This document shows positions 2,224 through 61,850 of a stretch of 61,850 bases of DNA, piece by piece. The DNA comes from Leptospiraceae bacterium (GTDB taxonomy: Bacteria > Spirochaetota > Leptospiria > Leptospirales > Leptospiraceae). Numbering within the stretch: the stretch's first letter is position 1; each line of letters begins with the position of its first letter. The translations under genes and the position numbers were made by a program. The notes beneath the pieces are model-generated. The model worked only from the letters and a program-made list of their open reading frames with translations. It searched no databases and was not told the origin of the DNA. The stretch is from the NCBI GenBank assembly GCA_022402465.1, contig JAKRSH010000005.1, positions 1-61,850 of the forward strand, read 5' to 3'.

Positions 2224-3816
2224 ATGTTTGTAAATATGGCTTGGCTTGCTTTGATACCGTCCGTGTTATTCATCCTGACGGGATTCTTTTCTTTGTTCCA
2301 AAAAGGGATGAGGCCATTTCTATTGCGTAAAATTGCACTAGGTGTAGGATTTTTAGGAATCTTAGCATCCATAGCGGCAAGTGTCAATTTATTCCAAAAT
2401 GGCGTTCAGAATGTACAAATCTGGAATTGGATGGGTTGGGGTATTTCCTTTAGAATGGATGCTCTTAGTATTTTGATGCTTACTATGATTTCCCTTCTAG
2501 CTTTTATCATTCTCCAATACAGTGCGAATTATTTGGATGGGGATTCTCACCAAGGAAGCTTTATCGGAAGACTCGCTATTACTTTTGCTTCAGTTGAGTT
2601 GTTGGTTCTATCTGGAAATCTACTCATCCTCGCATTAGCCTGGGTATTAACAAGTATTAGTCTGCATACATTGCTAACTTTTTACCCAGAGAGAAAAGCA
2701 GGGATGATAGCTGCCAAAAAGAAATTCATTCTTGCAAGAATTGGTGATGCCTGCTTGCTTTCCGCATTTTATATAATTTATATAAGTATGGGAACAGCAG
2801 AGCTATCAGAACTATTTCTTGCCTTTAATTCTTTAACATCATTCAACTCCAATCTGGTTTATGCATCTGTTCTAATTTGCATAGCTGCTCTTTTAAAATC
2901 GGCTCAATTTCCTACCTGGGGTTGGCTTGTTGAAGTAATGGAGACTCCAACTCCTGTTTCTGCTTTACTTCACGCTGGAATTCTAAATGCGGGTCCTTAT
3001 TTGGTGGTTCGTTTTGCAAGCTTAATGCAACACTCCGAGTTCGCCTCAATAGTATTAGTTGGAATAGGTGGACTGACTGCACTCTTAGCATCAGTATGCT
3101 TACTAACCCAACCATCAATTAAGGTAGCTCTAGCATACTCGAGTGCGGCACACATGGGTTTTATGTTACTTGTCTGCGGTTTAGGAGTGTATCCTGCGGT
3201 GATGTTGCATTTAGTTGCACACTCTTTCTACAAAGCACATGCTTTCCTTTCTTCGGGTAGTATTGTTGATTCGCTAAGGAGCAATAAAGTTCAACTTCCA
3301 GCTAGGCTAGGATCTATACCGCGTTTGGTGCTAAGTTTAGTTATGGCGATAGGAATCTATGGAACTTTTGCTTATCTTTGGGGGATAGACTTTACTGAAT
3401 CCCAAGATCTACCACTCTTAGGAATAGGCTTTATCTTTGTGCTAGGCTTGACCCTAATGATCTCACCTGCCCTGGATTCCGATGGAAGCATCTTGGGGAC
3501 AATTAGAACGGTAATCTTAGCTTTGGCAACAACCACAGCATTCTTTGGCTTAGAGTCATTGATGCATAGCTTACTTCAGTCTGAGGTTCCTGGAAGGTTT
3601 GCTCTGAGTGAACTTAGGATGATTCTACTTGGCTTCGTTTTAGTCAGCTTCCTAATTGCTATCTTTGCACAAGCGATAGCTCCTTCTCTCGCAATTAAGA
3701 AGACTTACCGAGCTTGGTCCCTTCATTTTAGAAATGGACTTTATGTTAATGCATACTTTGATCGAATCATTGGATCTTTAAGACAAAACACTATTCAAGG
3801 AGAATCTCATGTTTAA
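2224..3816 (+). CDS. dabB: DabB, proton-conducting membrane subunit of DAB carbon transporter
   Basis: A 530-residue polytopic membrane protein of the NuoL/MrpA antiporter superfamily (proton-translocating domain about residues 70-400). The conserved core includes PTPVSALLHAG near residues 242-252 and a following helix with the typical AHSFYKAHAFL segment. Downstream is a DUF2309 gene, and that pair is the DabB-DabA (DAB) system, which uses the proton gradient to trap CO2 as bicarbonate. GGAGG at 2214-2218 fixes the ATG at 2224. The last 8 bases overlap dabA, indicating translational coupling. A true NADH dehydrogenase subunit is unlikely because no other nuo genes are nearby. Confidence 0.9.
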   Translation: MFVNMAWLALIPSVLFILTGFFSLFQKGMRPFLLRKIALGVGFLGILASIAASVNLFQNGVQNVQIWNWMGWGISFRMDALSILMLTMISLLAFIILQYSANYLDGDSHQGSFIGRLAITFASVELLVLSGNLLILALAWVLTSISLHTLLTFYPERKAGMIAAKKKFILARIGDACLLSAFYIIYISMGTAELSELFLAFNSLTSFNSNLVYASVLICIAALLKSAQFPTWGWLVEVMETPTPVSALLHAGILNAGPYLVVRFASLMQHSEFASIVLVGIGGLTALLASVCLLTQPSIKVALAYSSAAHMGFMLLVCGLGVYPAVMLHLVAHSFYKAHAFLSSGSIVDSLRSNKVQLPARLGSIPRLVLSLVMAIGIYGTFAYLWGIDFTESQDLPLLGIGFIFVLGLTLMISPALDSDGSILGTIRTVILALATTTAFFGLESLMHSLLQSEVPGRFALSELRMILLGFVLVSFLIAIFAQAIAPSLAIKKTYRAWSLHFRNGLYVNAYFDRIIGSLRQNTIQGESHV

Positions 3817-6397
3817 ACTACAAGAACTAAAACAACAACAGCAATTCCAAAAGAATATTTCTCAGCAACTTAAAAAAGAAGAAGTTAAAGAAATTCTAAA
3901 TAAAGCCTGCAAGAAGATAGCTCCTGTATGGCCTTTGGAAAGTTTTGTAGCCGTTAACCCTTACTTTGGTATGACGGAAATGAGCTTTGAGGATGTTGCT
4001 GCTAGACTTAGTAAGTTAGCAAATATAAAAATGGCTCTTCCGCTACAGTACTATTTGAACGCCTACAAAGATGGGAAAATCACCAACCAAGATATAGAGA
4101 ATGCTCTAAATAAGTCTAAACTAAATTGGGATAAAGATGTAGAGAGGTTTATAGTAAAATGCAAAGAAGCTATCGATGAAAAAAAGGCTGAAGAAAATAA
4201 TAAAAAATCTTTTAAGTGTGTAGTTGATGTAGCTTCATCAGTGAGTAAAAAAGATTGGCTAAGCTTCCAAGTGGAAAGGATCTCCTCTTGGGCTTCTGTT
4301 TATTTTGATGAGGGACAAACAATCTGGAATTCGACTGATAAAAGTCTTAGTCCATACAAGAGCTGGTTGGAAGAGGCAAAAATCGACCGTATGCCTTCTG
4401 TTATGGGATTAACTGGATTTAGAGCATCATTGCATAGGCTTCCTATAGATCCCGTGGCAAGTGCTCATTTTATACTAAATCATTTAGGAATTCCAGAAGA
4501 GGCAAGAGACTTGTATCTTCACAAGTTGCTATTAAATTTAGTTGGATGGTCTTCTTATACTTCCAAGATCGTATTTGAGAGAACTCTTTATGGACATAAA
4601 GATGAATCCAATTTGGAATTCTTAGCGATACTGCTTGCTTGGGAATATGGAATTTATGAGTCCTTTGATTCTGAAGAAATACATGATGAATGGATCTATG
4701 CTAAGAATGAGATGATCCAAGAATCAAAATTGCTCTTGAATTCGAAAAATGCGGCTAACCAAAATGAAGAAAATCTTGCCTTAGTCCTTCAATCAGCTGT
4801 TGAACACTCTGTACAAAGGAAACTTGTGCAAGAAATTAACTCTTCTGGGAATAAAAAAGATTCTCAAATAGAAAATCATGCAATAGTAACCAATGATAAG
4901 CAAATTTCTAAAGATCGAGCTAGTGTCCAAGCGATCTTTTGTATTGATGTAAGATCAGAAGTATATAGAAGAAATTTGGAATCTGTATCAAGTAAGATAG
5001 AGACTTTGGGTTTTGCTGGTTTCTTTGCCTTCCCAATTGAATACTTTCCTATAGGTCATGTTCATGGTGCTACACAATGTCCGGTATTGCTTAGACCTGC
5101 TGTGAAAATTGCAGAAAATCTACCGAACAAAATATCTCTAGCGAATGCGATTCAAAGAAGATCACTAAGATTCCATGTTAGGCGAGCTTGGACTACTTTT
5201 AAAATGGGTGCAGTTTCTTGCTTTAGTTTTGTTGGTCCCATTGGTCTCTTTTACCTACCTAAACTTTTTACAGATGGTTTTGGTTGGACAAGAACTGTTC
5301 CGCATCCTGATAAAGATGGTTTGAGTAAAAAAGTAAATCTCATGAAAGCCCCAAGTTTGGAAAGTTCATCTATGAATGGCGCGAGTCTTGGATTTCCTCT
5401 TGAAACCAGAATAAAAATGGCTGAAGGAGCATTGAAGGCAATGTCGCTTACGTCAAATTTTGCGAAGCTAGTCTTGATTGCAGGTCACGGTTCTACTACA
5501 GTAAACAATCCTCATGCTACGGGCTTAGATTGTGGTGCTTGCGGTGGAAGAACAGGTGAATCGAATGCTAAAGTCGCAAGTCTTGTGTTAAATGATGTAG
5601 AAGTAAGAAAGGCTTTGGTTACAAAAGGTATCTTCATTCCAGAAGATACAATTTTCCTAGCCAGCCAACATGATACTACGACTGATGAGTTGACAATTTT
5701 TGATAAAGCTCTGATACCTAACAATCGATTAGCGGAGTTAGAAAGCTTAGAAGCAAATTTGCAATCTGCCGCTAAACTATCCAGATTGGAAAGATCCAAA
5801 AGAATGTCTCTAGCTTCATCGGAAAATCCAGAGATCAATATTCTAGCAAGAAGTAAAGACTGGGCTCAGGTTAGACCAGAGTGGGGTCTTGCAGGATGTT
5901 CTGCCTTTATTGCAGCTCCAAGAGAAAGAACTAAGGGACTAGACCTTGCAGGAAAATCATTCTTACATTCTTACAACTGGAAATTGGACGAAGGTTACGG
6001 AGTTCTAGAATTAATCTTAACAGCACCTGTCGTTGTTGCTAGTTGGATTAGCCTTCAATACTACGCGTCGACAGTAGATAACAAAGTGTTCGGTTCAGGG
6101 AATAAAACTTTACACAATGTTGTTTCAGGAATAGGTGTGCTAGAAGGAAACGGAGGTGATCTAAGAATCGGACTTCCATGGCAGTCTGTTCATGATGGAG
6201 TAAATTACCAACACGAACCTGTTAGACTAAATGTCGTAATTGAAGCTCCAAAGGATGCTATAAATGGTATTCTGAAAAAACACCAAATGGTGAAAGATCT
6301 CTTCGACAATGGATGGTTGCATCTTTTTAGAATCAATGAAGAGGGAAAGATTGATTCTAAATACGATCAAGATTTGAATTGGAAATCTATTTCCTAA
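3809..6397 (+). CDS. dabA: DabA, DUF2309 carbonic-anhydrase-like subunit of DAB transporter
   Basis: An 862-residue soluble or membrane-associated protein of the DUF2309/UPF0753 family, of usual length. The zinc-site residues known for DabA are visible: C378 and D380 in IFCIDVRSE, H560 in IAGHGSTT and C575 in GLDCGACGG. The site resembles a beta-carbonic anhydrase, and the DabA-DabB complex is thought to hydrate CO2 vectorially at the inner membrane. The start overlaps the dabB stop by 8 bases, with an AAGGAG-type site inside dabB. A strong terminator follows, so the unit appears bicistronic. In a presumably heterotrophic spirochaete it likely feeds carboxylases rather than carbon fixation. 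Confidence 0.92.
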   Translation: MFKLQELKQQQQFQKNISQQLKKEEVKEILNKACKKIAPVWPLESFVAVNPYFGMTEMSFEDVAARLSKLANIKMALPLQYYLNAYKDGKITNQDIENALNKSKLNWDKDVERFIVKCKEAIDEKKAEENNKKSFKCVVDVASSVSKKDWLSFQVERISSWASVYFDEGQTIWNSTDKSLSPYKSWLEEAKIDRMPSVMGLTGFRASLHRLPIDPVASAHFILNHLGIPEEARDLYLHKLLLNLVGWSSYTSKIVFERTLYGHKDESNLEFLAILLAWEYGIYESFDSEEIHDEWIYAKNEMIQESKLLLNSKNAANQNEENLALVLQSAVEHSVQRKLVQEINSSGNKKDSQIENHAIVTNDKQISKDRASVQAIFCIDVRSEVYRRNLESVSSKIETLGFAGFFAFPIEYFPIGHVHGATQCPVLLRPAVKIAENLPNKISLANAIQRRSLRFHVRRAWTTFKMGAVSCFSFVGPIGLFYLPKLFTDGFGWTRTVPHPDKDGLSKKVNLMKAPSLESSSMNGASLGFPLETRIKMAEGALKAMSLTSNFAKLVLIAGHGSTTVNNPHATGLDCGACGGRTGESNAKVASLVLNDVEVRKALVTKGIFIPEDTIFLASQHDTTTDELTIFDKALIPNNRLAELESLEANLQSAAKLSRLERSKRMSLASSENPEINILARSKDWAQVRPEWGLAGCSAFIAAPRERTKGLDLAGKSFLHSYNWKLDEGYGVLELILTAPVVVASWISLQYYASTVDNKVFGSGNKTLHNVVSGIGVLEGNGGDLRIGLPWQSVHDGVNYQHEPVRLNVVIEAPKDAINGILKKHQMVKDLFDNGWLHLFRINEEGKIDSKYDQDLNWKSIS

Positions 6398-23452: not shown

Positions 23453-23570
23453 ATAACAACACTCTAGTGAGCCTTTTCTATCTTTTGCAAGAAAGTCTGG
23501 ACGTCTTGCTTCTGCTTTTGGAGCACGGATACGGAACATAACTTAGCAGGATGGTAAAGCGAATGCCTAA
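23453..23570 (+). repeat. Structured repeat, copy 1 (decayed)
   Basis: It aligns over about 115 bases with 61509-61625, roughly three bases in four matching. Shared blocks include ATAACAA, AGTGAGCCT and TTGGAGCA followed by GGAACAT. The central hairpin of the other copy is kept here in changed form (GCAAGA paired with TCTTGC), which suggests selection or ancestry for structure. A palindrome of 17 bases (23643-23659, GTAGGATT-C-AATCCTAC) lies a little downstream. Confidence 0.7.
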
Positions 23571-34329: not shown

Positions 34330-35751
34330 TCACTCTAGAACAAGATCTCCAGCTTGCAAGATGGTTTTGTTAGTCCCTTGGCCATCTGCAATGTTATTCG
34401 CAGAATTGTATCCTAGCCTCCCATCTCCTCCATTTCCCCAGCAACGAACTGCACCAGTTGAAAGTAGGGCACAGGTATGAGAGGATCCAGCAGAAATCTG
34501 AGTTGCAATTCCACCTAAGGCAATATCATTACTCGCAATAATACTTGGACTAGAACCGTTCCCTACATTTAAATTACTATTGTATCCAAGTTGACCACTA
34601 CTTCCATCTCCCCAGCATCGAACCTTTCCAAATTCATAAAGAGCACAGGTATGAAAAAAGCCAGCAGTAATTTGTTTCACGATTCCGCCTGTAGGTACAT
34701 CTCCTGTATTAATGATACTCGTAGCTAAGGAATCTCCAACCACAGTATTTGCATTATATCCTAAATTACCATCTGTGCCCTCACCCCAACATCGCATTGC
34801 TCCATTATTTAAGAGAGCACAGGTATGAATTGCTCCTGTTGTGATTTGAATGGCAAGTCCACCTAAGGGGACATCACCCGCGCTGATTATTGATTGGCTT
34901 CCTTCTCCAATTGGAGTTGTAGTATTGTATCCTAATTGTCCAGATGAATTTCCGCCCCAGCATCTAACAGATTGGTTGCTCATAAGGGCACAGGTATGTT
35001 GGTCCCCTGCAGAAATTTGAGTTGCAGTTCCACCTAAGGGGACATCGCCTGCGGATTGAATGCTTGGACCTATACCATTACCTACAGACTGTGTATTATT
35101 ATATCCTAATTGTCCAAAGTCTCCAAGCCCCCAACAGCGAACAGATCCTCTTGCTAGGAGAGCACAACTGTGTTTGGTTCCTAGGGCTAATTGAATTACC
35201 TTTTCTCCGATAGGGACAATTCCAGCCGCTTCCATACTTAGTCCAAGACCATTGCCAACAGCTTGAATGCTATTGTATCCCAATCTACCATCAGCACCTT
35301 CACCCCAACATTTCACATCTCCTGAAGTTAGTAAGGCACAGCTATGGATTTCTCCTGCGACAACTTGAGTGACTTTTTCGGATAAAGGGAGGAAAGAAGA
35401 TTGTTGGATACCGAGATTTCCCCCTGCACCGTCCCCAATATTGTTGCTATTCCCATAGCCAAGCTGTCCAAAGCTTCCATTCCCCCAAGCTTTGAGGCGA
35501 CCATCTTCGAATTTGAGCAAAGTATGATTGGATGCCATCATAGTGGCCAAGCTTTTAGTAGGTACTGCTTGATTGGTAAATCTGAGACTGTAACCACAGT
35601 AAGAAGTTGAATCCCGGATTGCAAATTTAAGGAGAAATGTATTTAAGAAATTATCTTTCTGAAAATCGCAAGGATTGTCTAGCTTAGTGTTGATGCAATT
35701 CGATGATGAATAAGAAATGAAAATAAAGAAGAGAAGTTGAAGTTTGATCAT
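34330..35751 (-). CDS. RCC1-repeat lipoprotein, long paralogue
   Basis: A 473-residue exported protein. A signal peptide ends at SSSNC, a relaxed spirochaetal lipobox with Asn at -1. A short module follows (NPCDFQKDNFLNTFLLKFAI and then TSYCG). Seven RCC1-type repeats make up the rest, each with C-A-L-L-x-x-G-x-V-(R/K)-C-W-G and GQLGYN and about 52 residues long; the first is degenerate. They should fold as a beta-propeller. It is likely surface or periplasmic; the ligand is unknown. It is a tandem paralogue of the next gene, with the final 30 bases identical. Confidence 0.82.
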   Translation of the reverse strand: MIKLQLLFFIFISYSSSNCINTKLDNPCDFQKDNFLNTFLLKFAIRDSTSYCGYSLRFTNQAVPTKSLATMMASNHTLLKFEDGRLKAWGNGSFGQLGYGNSNNIGDGAGGNLGIQQSSFLPLSEKVTQVVAGEIHSCALLTSGDVKCWGEGADGRLGYNSIQAVGNGLGLSMEAAGIVPIGEKVIQLALGTKHSCALLARGSVRCWGLGDFGQLGYNNTQSVGNGIGPSIQSAGDVPLGGTATQISAGDQHTCALMSNQSVRCWGGNSSGQLGYNTTTPIGEGSQSIISAGDVPLGGLAIQITTGAIHTCALLNNGAMRCWGEGTDGNLGYNANTVVGDSLATSIINTGDVPTGGIVKQITAGFFHTCALYEFGKVRCWGDGSSGQLGYNSNLNVGNGSSPSIIASNDIALGGIATQISAGSSHTCALLSTGAVRCWGNGGDGRLGYNSANNIADGQGTNKTILQAGDLVLE

Positions 35752-35862
35752 AAATTGTTAAGTAAAGAAAACCAGAATACATTTTGAATTTATATTCTTT
35801 TAAATATGCTTATATTACAAACTTATTTAATCAGTTAATTCCTTCTATAGCTTTTTTATCTT

Positions 35863-36438
35863 TCACTCTAGAACAAGATCTCCAGCTTGTAAGATGGACT
35901 GTCCTATTCCATCGCCTACATCAAGAATGCTATTGTAACCCAATTTCCCTAATGCGCCATTGCCCCAACATTTAACATCTCCTGTTCTAAGTAAGGCACA
36001 ACTAAAATTTGAGCCTGCTGTAAGTTGCTTTACTGAGTCAGCAATTGGAATAAAGTCAGAGTCTTTAATGGATAGATTAGGCGGCACGCCGTCGCCTATA
36101 TTGTTGGTATTTCCATAGCCTAGTTGACCATCACTTCCAAAGCCCCAAGCTTTGATTCGTTCATCTTCGAACTTAAAAAGAGTATGAGTCGCAGCAGGCA
36201 TGGTCGCTAAACTTTTGGGAGAAGAGGGCAGAGAATTTGGATTACCATTTAATCTTAAGCTTATTCCACAGTGTGAGGTAGAATCATTTAAAGCATATTT
36301 AGCGAGCATTGTGCTAAGAAAAGAATCAGATTGTAAGTCGCAAGGATTATCTAGTTCAGGATTAATACAATTGAGATTGGAAAAAGATATTGTATAAATT
36401 ACTATAAGATGTATTAAATAAAGTAAGTATGAGCTCAT
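35863..36438 (-). CDS. RCC1-repeat lipoprotein, short paralogue
   Basis: A 191-residue paralogue of the gene at 34330, with the same leader (NLNC lipobox, NPCDLQSDSFLST then SHCG). It has only two RCC1-type repeats, one degenerate, then the same ending QAGDLVLE. The last 30 bases, including 3 past the stop, are identical to the long copy (35860-35889 with 34327-34356). Two repeats cannot close a seven-bladed propeller, so it may be a repeat-contracted form, oligomeric or non-functional. It is intact with no frameshift. Confidence 0.75.
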   Translation of the reverse strand: MSSYLLYLIHLIVIYTISFSNLNCINPELDNPCDLQSDSFLSTMLAKYALNDSTSHCGISLRLNGNPNSLPSSPKSLATMPAATHTLFKFEDERIKAWGFGSDGQLGYGNTNNIGDGVPPNLSIKDSDFIPIADSVKQLTAGSNFSCALLRTGDVKCWGNGALGKLGYNSILDVGDGIGQSILQAGDLVLE

Positions 36439-60041: not shown

Positions 60042-60605
60042 TTGCAAGAAGAATCTTCCTCCAATCATCAGCTAACATCTTATATTGCAAATGATGAAAT
60101 CAGAAGCAAAGTAAATTATTTAGCACAACGCATAACAAATGATTTCAAAGATCATTCCACAAACCAAGGCAAGGAACTTCTCTTGGTTGGTGTATTGAAT
60201 GGTTCCTTAGTTTTTCTTGCAGATTTGATTCGAGAAATCAAAATTCCAATTCTAGTTGATACTATCGCTGCCTGCTCTTACGGCAGCCAAACTCTAAGTT
60301 CTGGTAAAGTTGAAATTACAAAGAAGTTAAGTTTAGATCCAAGAGGGAAACATATAATTCTTGTTGAAGACATAGTTGAAACTGGTCTTACTTTAGAAGC
60401 AATCAAAGAGTATCTACTCACACTAGGCGTACAATCTGTACAAATTTGCTCTTTGCTATTTAAGCAAAAAAAAGATGCGGTAAAGCATTCAATTGATTAT
60501 CTAGGATTCGCTATTGAAGATAGATTTGTGGTTGGATACGGTTTGGATTATGCGGGTTTGTATAGAAACCTGCCGTATATTGCGGAACTAACATTCGGAG
60601 CTTAA
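60042..60605 (+). CDS. hpt: Hypoxanthine phosphoribosyltransferase
   Basis: A 187-residue purine-salvage enzyme. The PRPP-binding motif is ILVEDIVETGLTL. The flexible-loop region has AACSYGSQTLSSG, and FVVGYGLDYAGLYRNLPY is the C-terminal purine-site segment. It converts hypoxanthine or guanine plus PRPP to the nucleotide. The TTG at 60042, 4 bases after the SixA stop and with AGG just upstream, gives the usual length; the longer frame would lie inside sixA. Confidence 0.87.
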   Translation: MQEESSSNHQLTSYIANDEIRSKVNYLAQRITNDFKDHSTNQGKELLLVGVLNGSLVFLADLIREIKIPILVDTIAACSYGSQTLSSGKVEITKKLSLDPRGKHIILVEDIVETGLTLEAIKEYLLTLGVQSVQICSLLFKQKKDAVKHSIDYLGFAIEDRFVVGYGLDYAGLYRNLPYIAELTFGA

Positions 60606-61508
60606 AACGAATGCTATTCTTGCTCAGAGTTATTTAAAATCGAATCTAATATTTATAGTTGAGCGTTATTGGATATTTATGAATAAAAAAGATTTTGTAA
60701 GAATTTTACTTTAGAATTTTTGTAAATTGAAAAGTCTGAATCAATGAGAACTGCGTTTCGCATTTTTATTCTCTAAAGATTTATGCAGGTATACTTTTCG
60801 ATTTTGCAAATGAATTTAATTTTCTTTCTAACTCCGGTGGCAGTCGTAAACTAATCATATATAATGTATTTCATGATCTAGAAAATGCGTTTTTCATATT
60901 TTTAGTTTTATCGATCAGTTTTATAATTGTAATAGAATTTATTCTTATTTAGGTTAAGTTAATCCTGATAGATTTGAATATGAACATAGTATCAAATAAT
61001 TCGGGACCAGGGAAAGATTTAATTATATTATATCTTAACAGTCATAAAACCTTCTCGGTTTGCTGCTAGATTTAATTTTATATCGAGGGAAACGAAGGTG
61101 AAATTGCTAGTCTTGTGTTGACAAAATAGTATAGCACTTGCTAGTTGTAAGGAATCTGCTGCTCTTAAAAAAAAATACATTGTACGTTTTGTTCGTTATG
61201 TTGGATGAAAAATTTGCTAAAGGGGCATAAGTTTTCGATCAAAATTTAAAATTCACAAAAATGCGTAGTAAAAATCTAAGAAAACTCTGTTTATTTGTAA
61301 AAATGATCAAAGATGTACATAGCTAGATTGGAGCAAAAGAAAAAGTTAGCTTATAAAATAAATCAGAACCTAAGCTGCTTTTTCGTATGAATAGGTATGA
61401 TAAAGCCCATTCAAAACGGGGGTTGCAACTAACTTGGAATTGGGTGATCTTTAAATTAATGATGGAATGGGAGTTTCTTTGTTTAGCCTAGAGTGAATTC
61501 ATAGAATA
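60606..61508. other. Long AT-rich stretch without a gene
   Basis: No gene with a convincing start, ribosome site or recognisable product was seen in about 900 bases. TTGACA near 61120-61130 followed by TATAG-like bases is a weak promoter-like string with no gene behind it. The stretch is broken by stops in all frames and may be decayed genes. It leads into the structured repeat array. Confidence 0.55.
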
Positions 61509-61625
61509 ATAACAATACTCCAGTGAGCCTATTGACCTCTTTCGCAAGCAAGCCATGGATGGCTTGCCTCGGCATTTGGAGCATGGATGCGGAACATGCC
61601 GACGAAAGAGGGCAAGGCGAACCCT
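61509..61625 (+). repeat. Cloverleaf-like structured repeat, best copy
   Basis: An outer stem CCTCTTTCG (61536-61544) pairs with CGAAAGAGG (61603-61611). Inside are GCAAGCCAT-GG-ATGGCTTGC (61548-61567) and CGGCAT (61570-61575) with ATGCCG (61596-61601). The same sequence blocks occur, decayed, at 23453 and 23830. The G+C-rich sequence stands out from its surroundings. The array continues to the window edge. Confidence 0.75.
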
Positions 61626-61766
61626 CTTTCTCGTCGCACCCTGGAATTAAAATTCTCTTCCAACCTAGGAGGACGGATTGTCCTTCCCACCGCTTGCGAA
61701 CAGGACGTTCGCAACTTTCGCTTTTGGGCAGGATCTCGGTTTACCCTTTCTCGTCGCACCCTGGAA
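61626..61766 (+). repeat. 120-bp-period direct repeat with hairpins
   Basis: A 21-base string beginning CTTTCTCGTCGCACCC occurs at 61626-61646 and again exactly 120 bases later (61746-61766). Between them, TTGCGAAC (61694-61701) and GTTCGCAA (61707-61714) form a perfect 8-bp hairpin, and GGACG and CGTCC-like dyads surround it. Confidence 0.65.
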
Positions 61767-61820
61767 CATCGTGTTCCAAAGTGCGAGAAACGACATCCAT
61801 GTCGTTTTGGCTCGAAAGGG
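61744..61820 (+). repeat. Second cloverleaf-like structured unit
   Basis: CCCTTTC (61744-61750) pairs with GAAAGGG (61814-61820). Inside are TGGAACA-TCG-TGTTCCA (61762-61778) and AACGACAT-CC-ATGTCGTT (61789-61806), both perfect. The plan is the same as in the unit at 61536-61611, with different bases in the stems. Confidence 0.7.
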
Positions 61821-61850
61821 CAAATCCTCGTTTGGTGGGTAGAAATCAAC

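Follow-up and report, generated by a model that had tools for sequence, protein, structure and literature searches.

The right end of the window, by which we mean the whole 61,850-nt stretch of DNA analyzed here, carries two complete members and fragments of a multicopy family of structured elements in which nearly fixed GGA loops are displayed on freely varying stems. The best explanation for these elements, which we hold to be about evenly poised, is that they constitute a divergent, TwoAYGGAY-like family of putative CsrA-site RNAs. The new part is their boundary position at the joints of toxin cassettes, a link that we have not met in the literature; in particular, no mention of a toxin-cassette setting of TwoAYGGAY was found in the literature searched.

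Organization of the Right End of the Window

The window is contig C35 in its entirety, one of 45 contigs of a draft genome of 3.99 Mb, and its ORFs suggest a leptospira-like gene content. The last gene upstream of the repeats ends at 60605, and the region from ~60859 to the contig end at base 61850 is a mosaic, the modules of which recur elsewhere in the genome, as detected by BLAST (Table 1). Both complete units, denoted A and B, are three-way junctions, with an outer stem enclosing two hairpins, and A begins with a 5' tail ahead of its outer stem. Together with A, the AT-rich spacer matches the L023 copies at 81-87% over ~460-575 bp (BLAST). The third-type element (P3), truncated in the window, is represented by complete copies in L020, L023, L026, L027, and L030, which score 76-89 bits with the extended covariance model R2.

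The earlier note had read this region as an array of units, with a 21-base string repeating at an exact 120-bp period. The string, CTTTCTCGTCGCACCCTGGAA, is indeed present twice, at 61626 and at 61746, and the offset is exactly 120 bp, but this spacing is not a unit length: its first occurrence belongs to a fragment of a B element located directly after A. Moreover, A lies on the plus strand and B on the minus strand, so that the two are inverted, with the truncated P3 between the fragment and B. Because B is inverted and the repeated string is part of a fragment, tandem direct repeats of a 120-bp unit are ruled out.

Elsewhere in the window, two adjacent RCC1-repeat-like lipoprotein genes (34330-36438) share an identical 38-bp 3' end and look like a recent partial duplication. 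At 2224-6397, a NuoL-like membrane protein is followed by a large DUF2309-like protein, the two resembling a DabB-DabA inorganic-carbon uptake pair.

Table 1. Coordinates of the elements and repeat modules, in the window unless a locus is named
Feature	Position	Strand	Basis and remarks
Element A	61509-61623	+	Inverted repeat; fold z -4.0; covariation; model match 118 bits
Element A, outer stem	61527-61529 and 61532-61544, paired with 61603-61615 and 61616-61618	+	Outer extension GCC/GGC
Element A, hairpin 1	61548-61567	+	Loop TGGA
Element A, hairpin 2	61569-61602	+	Inner GCA-TGGA-TGC
Element B	61733-61846	-	A-like plan, inverted relative to A; R1 match E 2.5e-9; fold z -6.6
Element B, hairpins			Hairpin 1 loop TGGA; hairpin 2 loop CGA in the window, GGA in copies L022 and L025
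Truncated third-type element (P3)	~61660-61732	+	BLAST and alignment; weak model match at 61657-61798
B-element fragment	61624-61646	-	Direct repeat D3; alignment; contains CTTTCTCGTCGCACCCTGGAA of the 120-bp repeat
AT-rich repeated spacer	61161-61508	+	Immediately 5' of A; common to two copies in L023 (C13)
Another repeat module of the mosaic	60859-61015		Also in contigs C30 and C33; BLAST 89% over 155 bp
Solitary diverged A copy	23453-23565	+	Intergenic; R1 match E 1.8e-12
P1/P2 modules	L030 4480-4640 and 7450-7610; L026 1930-2080; L027 12300-12450; L041 6560-6700		

Folding and Covariation of the Elements

The palindromic units described in the earlier note proved to be real, folding well beyond chance. 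When compared with dinucleotide shuffles, the 342-nt stretch folded as DNA yielded z = -8.2, whereas unit A and the minus strand of unit B, both folded as RNA, yielded z = -4.0 and z = -6.6, respectively. The proposal that the units share one plan but differ in their stem bases was borne out as well: R1, a covariance model built from six A copies, matches B on the minus strand (E 2.5e-9) and, more weakly, P3, despite the stems of A, B, and P3 being unrelated in sequence.

The stems covary across copies, as the earlier note had anticipated, both in this genome and in other genera. Over 19 copies from this genome, two-sided changes were observed in 31 of the 35 pairs, amounting to 153 cells versus 47.6 in shuffles, and the covariation score was 0.581 versus at most 0.158 with the partners slid, figures that are flattered by the fitting of the alignment to the model; the six A copies aligned without the model gave 11 two-sided cells versus 3.1. 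In the cross-genus set, there were 284 two-sided cells versus 85 in shuffles, with a covariation score of 0.822 versus at most 0.156 for slid partners. For instance, the outer stem TTGACCTCTTT/AAAGAGGGCAA is replaced by CTACCATCTCT/AGAGATGGTAG in L022. The elements are structured, and compensatory change in every helix strongly supports selection for this structure. The only point in favor of palindromes arising by chance, without selection, is how few units the window contains, but fold z-scores of -4 to -8, covariation above both shuffles and slid controls, and matches across genera render this explanation extremely improbable.

In the stems, G-U pairs outnumber A-C mismatches (65 versus 32, the cells being non-independent and the model itself favoring G-U), an excess that favors RNA made from the GGA strand. 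With respect to the earlier alternative of an RNA or a DNA cruciform for a transposase, the transposase-linked form is unsupported and a general cruciform role is possible, whereas the GGA loops and the G-U excess favor RNA.

Distribution and Possible Mobility

Far from being confined to this locus, the elements are present in ~17 copies in this genome, as found with a covariance model of A, a count that rests on searches only; one of these is the solitary copy at 23453-23565, with no toxin gene close by among the neighboring ORFs. Among 30 genomes of the order, our own included, R2 matched 8 and R3, a model built with the genomes matched by R2, matched 14; R3 also matched 10 of 266 genomes elsewhere in the phylum, of which a few are expected to be weak chance matches at E <= 0.01. 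The model E-values derive from a shortened calibration. The other genomes of the family, seven in all, yielded neither a model match nor DNA similarity, and the plasmids searched showed no DNA similarity; a 22-mer of B had no match in the GTDB contigs, a set from which our own genome is possibly absent.

The genomic placement of the elements in relatives is diverse. In G008 (L064, L066, L067, L068, and L069), a ~290-bp MITE-like repeat with CCCGGATTATTC-type inverted ends has the GGA cloverleaf inside, and several near-identical copies of this repeat carry the element. In two species of one genus (G011 and G013), two to four elements are clustered directly 3' of groEL (L099 7339-8289; L100 1874-2565), and other elements in relatives are placed between housekeeping genes. 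Inverted pairs ~120 bp apart, in the opposite sense to A and B of the window, were observed in G026 and G027 (L113 2096-2423; L116 766-1096).

Ordinary mobile palindromic repeats of the MITE, ERIC, or RPE kind, in which compensation would keep the palindrome for the sake of mobility and the GGA loops would stem from one ancestor, could be dispersed, mosaic, and multicopy in this manner, with solitary copies between genes, and the near-identical G008 copies within a repeat bounded by terminal inverted repeats are in line with such an origin. Nevertheless, we consider it unlikely, because the loops are fixed while the stems turn over wholly between genera, neither terminal inverted repeats nor target duplications were seen in this genome, and the G-U excess also speaks against it.

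Mobilization of REP sequences by a RAYT transposase, the TnpA-REP reading of the earlier note, appears highly improbable. Two Y1 transposases are encoded in the genome, but each passes the IS200/IS605 model, with the REP-associated transposase model reaching 29.3 bits in one of them versus a cut-off of 80, and both are flanked by other hairpins; furthermore, an element of ~110 nt with two inner hairpins is not a short REP. This candidate was rejected on the grounds that the transposases are of the IS200/IS605 type with unrelated hairpins. The two transposase genes (L042 4136-4597; L043 4255-4728) stand alone between their own hairpins, without an adjacent tnpB.

GGA Loops and Relationship to TwoAYGGAY

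Throughout the family, the loops are nearly fixed while the stems vary freely, with ANGGA-type hairpin loops located on one strand. The loops of the A copies are ATGGA, ACGGA, or AAGGA, the A of the window having ATGGA twice, and those of P3 are AGGA twice. The B copies have ATGGA plus either GGA or CGA; the second loop of B in the window is CGA rather than GGA, which counts against the CsrA reading. The two-hairpin plan with AYGGAY-type loops over a common stem is found in A and in most copies. In other genera, the same loops occur on unrelated stems (GGCGTCAGGATGACGCC with TGGACAGGGATGTCCA; GGCCACAGGATGTGGCC with TTGGGCACGGAAGCCCAA), although these matches, obtained with a model already containing GGA, are weaker evidence for loop conservation.

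The nearest of the 4,227 Rfam families is TwoAYGGAY (RF01731). At the gathering threshold, the window has no match to Rfam, and A scores 17.9 bits with RF01731, far under the cut-off of 43; hence, we refer to the window copies as TwoAYGGAY-like and not as members. Among the relatives, L057 scores 33.9 bits, and L094 (47.4) and L080 (43.7) both exceed the cut-off of 43; L080 (G157) was also found independently by R3 (E 9e-8), its tie to the window copies running through one model chain. The TwoAYGGAY-like class assignment is well supported. TwoAYGGAY has been predicted to be a CsrA-binding RNA (PMC4333381) and is known from human gut metagenomes, Gammaproteobacteria, and Clostridiales (PMC2864571), not from spirochaetes.

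The CsrA consensus is RUACARGGAUGU, with the GGA in a hairpin loop (PMC8668096), and the loops of the elements, ANGGA in hairpin loops and in pairs, fit this form. The genome encodes csrA (PF02599, 89.9 bits). We would put CsrA binding by the elements at about an even chance. An RNA transcribed from the GGA strand would display a pair of CsrA sites, a number that suits a single CsrA dimer, and would bind or sequester CsrA; a scan near A identified 3 promoter-like sites versus 3.8 expected, that is, no convincing promoter. The copies at the end of the window, in turn, may have arrived within repeated spacers of the toxin cassettes, through recombination among these spacers and interruption of one by another, which would account for the mosaic as well as for the break of the contig.

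At the time TwoAYGGAY was put forward as a candidate, no RNA decoys for CsrA were known outside Gammaproteobacteria (PMC4333381). Homologs of csrB and csrC are stated to be absent from Leptospira (PMC8668096), although one predicted CsrA-related noncoding RNA has been reported in L. biflexa (PMC4863578). A multicopy GGA-loop family spread across the order is a source of CsrA-decoy candidates.

Elements at the Joints of Toxin Cassettes

Approximately 13 of the 17 copies in this genome are located among orphan polymorphic-toxin/immunity genes. The orphan Rhs tips end in RDPSGN, with eight matches over the Rhs-core cut-off, and the neighbors also include tips of another large secreted-toxin type; small, putative immunity genes follow the toxin tips. 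A Pfam search of the orphan toxin ORFs returned almost no matches. In relatives, the elements of G023, G026, and G027 adjoin Hint-domain toxin cassettes. A toxin tip on contig C30 of our genome is related to the element-adjacent tip in G026 (37% identity, E 2e-20), and a weak resemblance to the immunity candidates of our own arrays was noted for small lipoproteins adjacent to elements in G018 and G024 (best E 0.003, in G024 only), on which we place no reliance.

In four genomes, a spacer terminates at its 3' end in the element, with 5'-truncated toxin genes following immediately; the truncation points differ. Three copies in G023, each preceded by a repeated spacer of 260-430 bp, stop at one base, and the toxin core then begins at a different point in each of the three, always at GAYGG. 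In G026 and G027, the element runs straight into the Hint start, and in this genome, A, after a repeated spacer of ~450 bp, runs straight into different reading frames. The upstream joint of the truncated cassettes thus falls at the foot of the element. Given that orphan toxin modules are usually devoid of start signals (PMC3967940), the element is unlikely to act as a regulator at their 5' side. A second kind of palindromic module (P1 and P2; Table 1), mostly long hairpins without GGA loops, was observed to continue in frame with truncated Rhs genes; it also abuts Rhs-core remnants of differing length.

That the element joins truncated toxin genes so exactly points to a role at the DNA level, one that CsrA binding does not explain. 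Either the spacer and its element belong to the cassette before them, as its conserved tail, and new cassettes land immediately after this tail, or cassettes break and join at the folded DNA itself; the evidence for a DNA-level boundary role is suggestive, and this role is unproven. In its strict form, to which we give a real but minor chance, the element would be a DNA site marking the ends of toxin cassettes, a hairpin or cruciform cut at its foot where new cassettes join, with the GGA loops as the recognition feature for a hypothetical enzyme. The single end base and recurrent GAYGG in G023, the abutment to the Hint start and, for A, to different reading frames, and the G008 element inside a MITE-like repeat all agree with such a site. 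By contrast, no dedicated recombinase was found, XerD, XerC, and two more tyrosine recombinases all scoring below the integron-integrase cut-off; the joints of solitary copies have no common target; some copies are found downstream of groEL or of housekeeping genes, where there is no cassette; and the G-U excess favors RNA.

The CsrA-site RNA and the cassette joint might also be reconciled in one sequence serving as both CsrA decoy and cassette recombination site, so that a TwoAYGGAY-like CsrA-site element would be the toxin-cassette end-piece in Leptospirales. A cassette would then consist of a truncated toxin gene, an immunity gene, a spacer, and the element, and its storage and exchange would take the foot of the folded element as the joint. 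This combination we regard as distinctly unlikely. The recurrent place of the elements at orphan-toxin joints provides a handle on how silent toxin stores assemble.

Comparison with Known Systems

Like TwoAYGGAY (RF01731), the elements have an outer stem and two GGA-loop hairpins on one strand, but the window copies reach 17.9 of the 43 bits required. With the CsrA-sequestering small RNAs of the CsrB/RsmZ type, they share multiple hairpins with GGA in the loop. However, CsrB and RsmZ are single gammaproteobacterial genes with many sites, their own promoter, and a terminator, whereas the elements have two sites per unit, dispersed copies, and promoter-like sites at chance level. Similar to REP/RAYT systems, they are palindromic repeats dispersed between genes, but their size, architecture, and the type of transposase do not match.

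The attC sites of integrons resemble the elements in being structured, in ending each stored cassette, and in the free variation of their stems, but differ from the three-way junction and GGA loops described here, as do integron cassettes from 5'-truncated toxin genes. A profile search of the genome, a gapped assembly, for an integron integrase gave a best score of 172.6 bits versus a cut-off of 265, and with no integrase over the cut-off, an attC identity is unsupported. Finally, as in the enterobacterial orphan rhs-CT/immunity modules (PMC3967940), displaced 5'-truncated toxin tips are accompanied by immunity genes, putative ones in our genome, and are without start signals; unlike in those modules, a conserved structured element is located here at the upstream joint.
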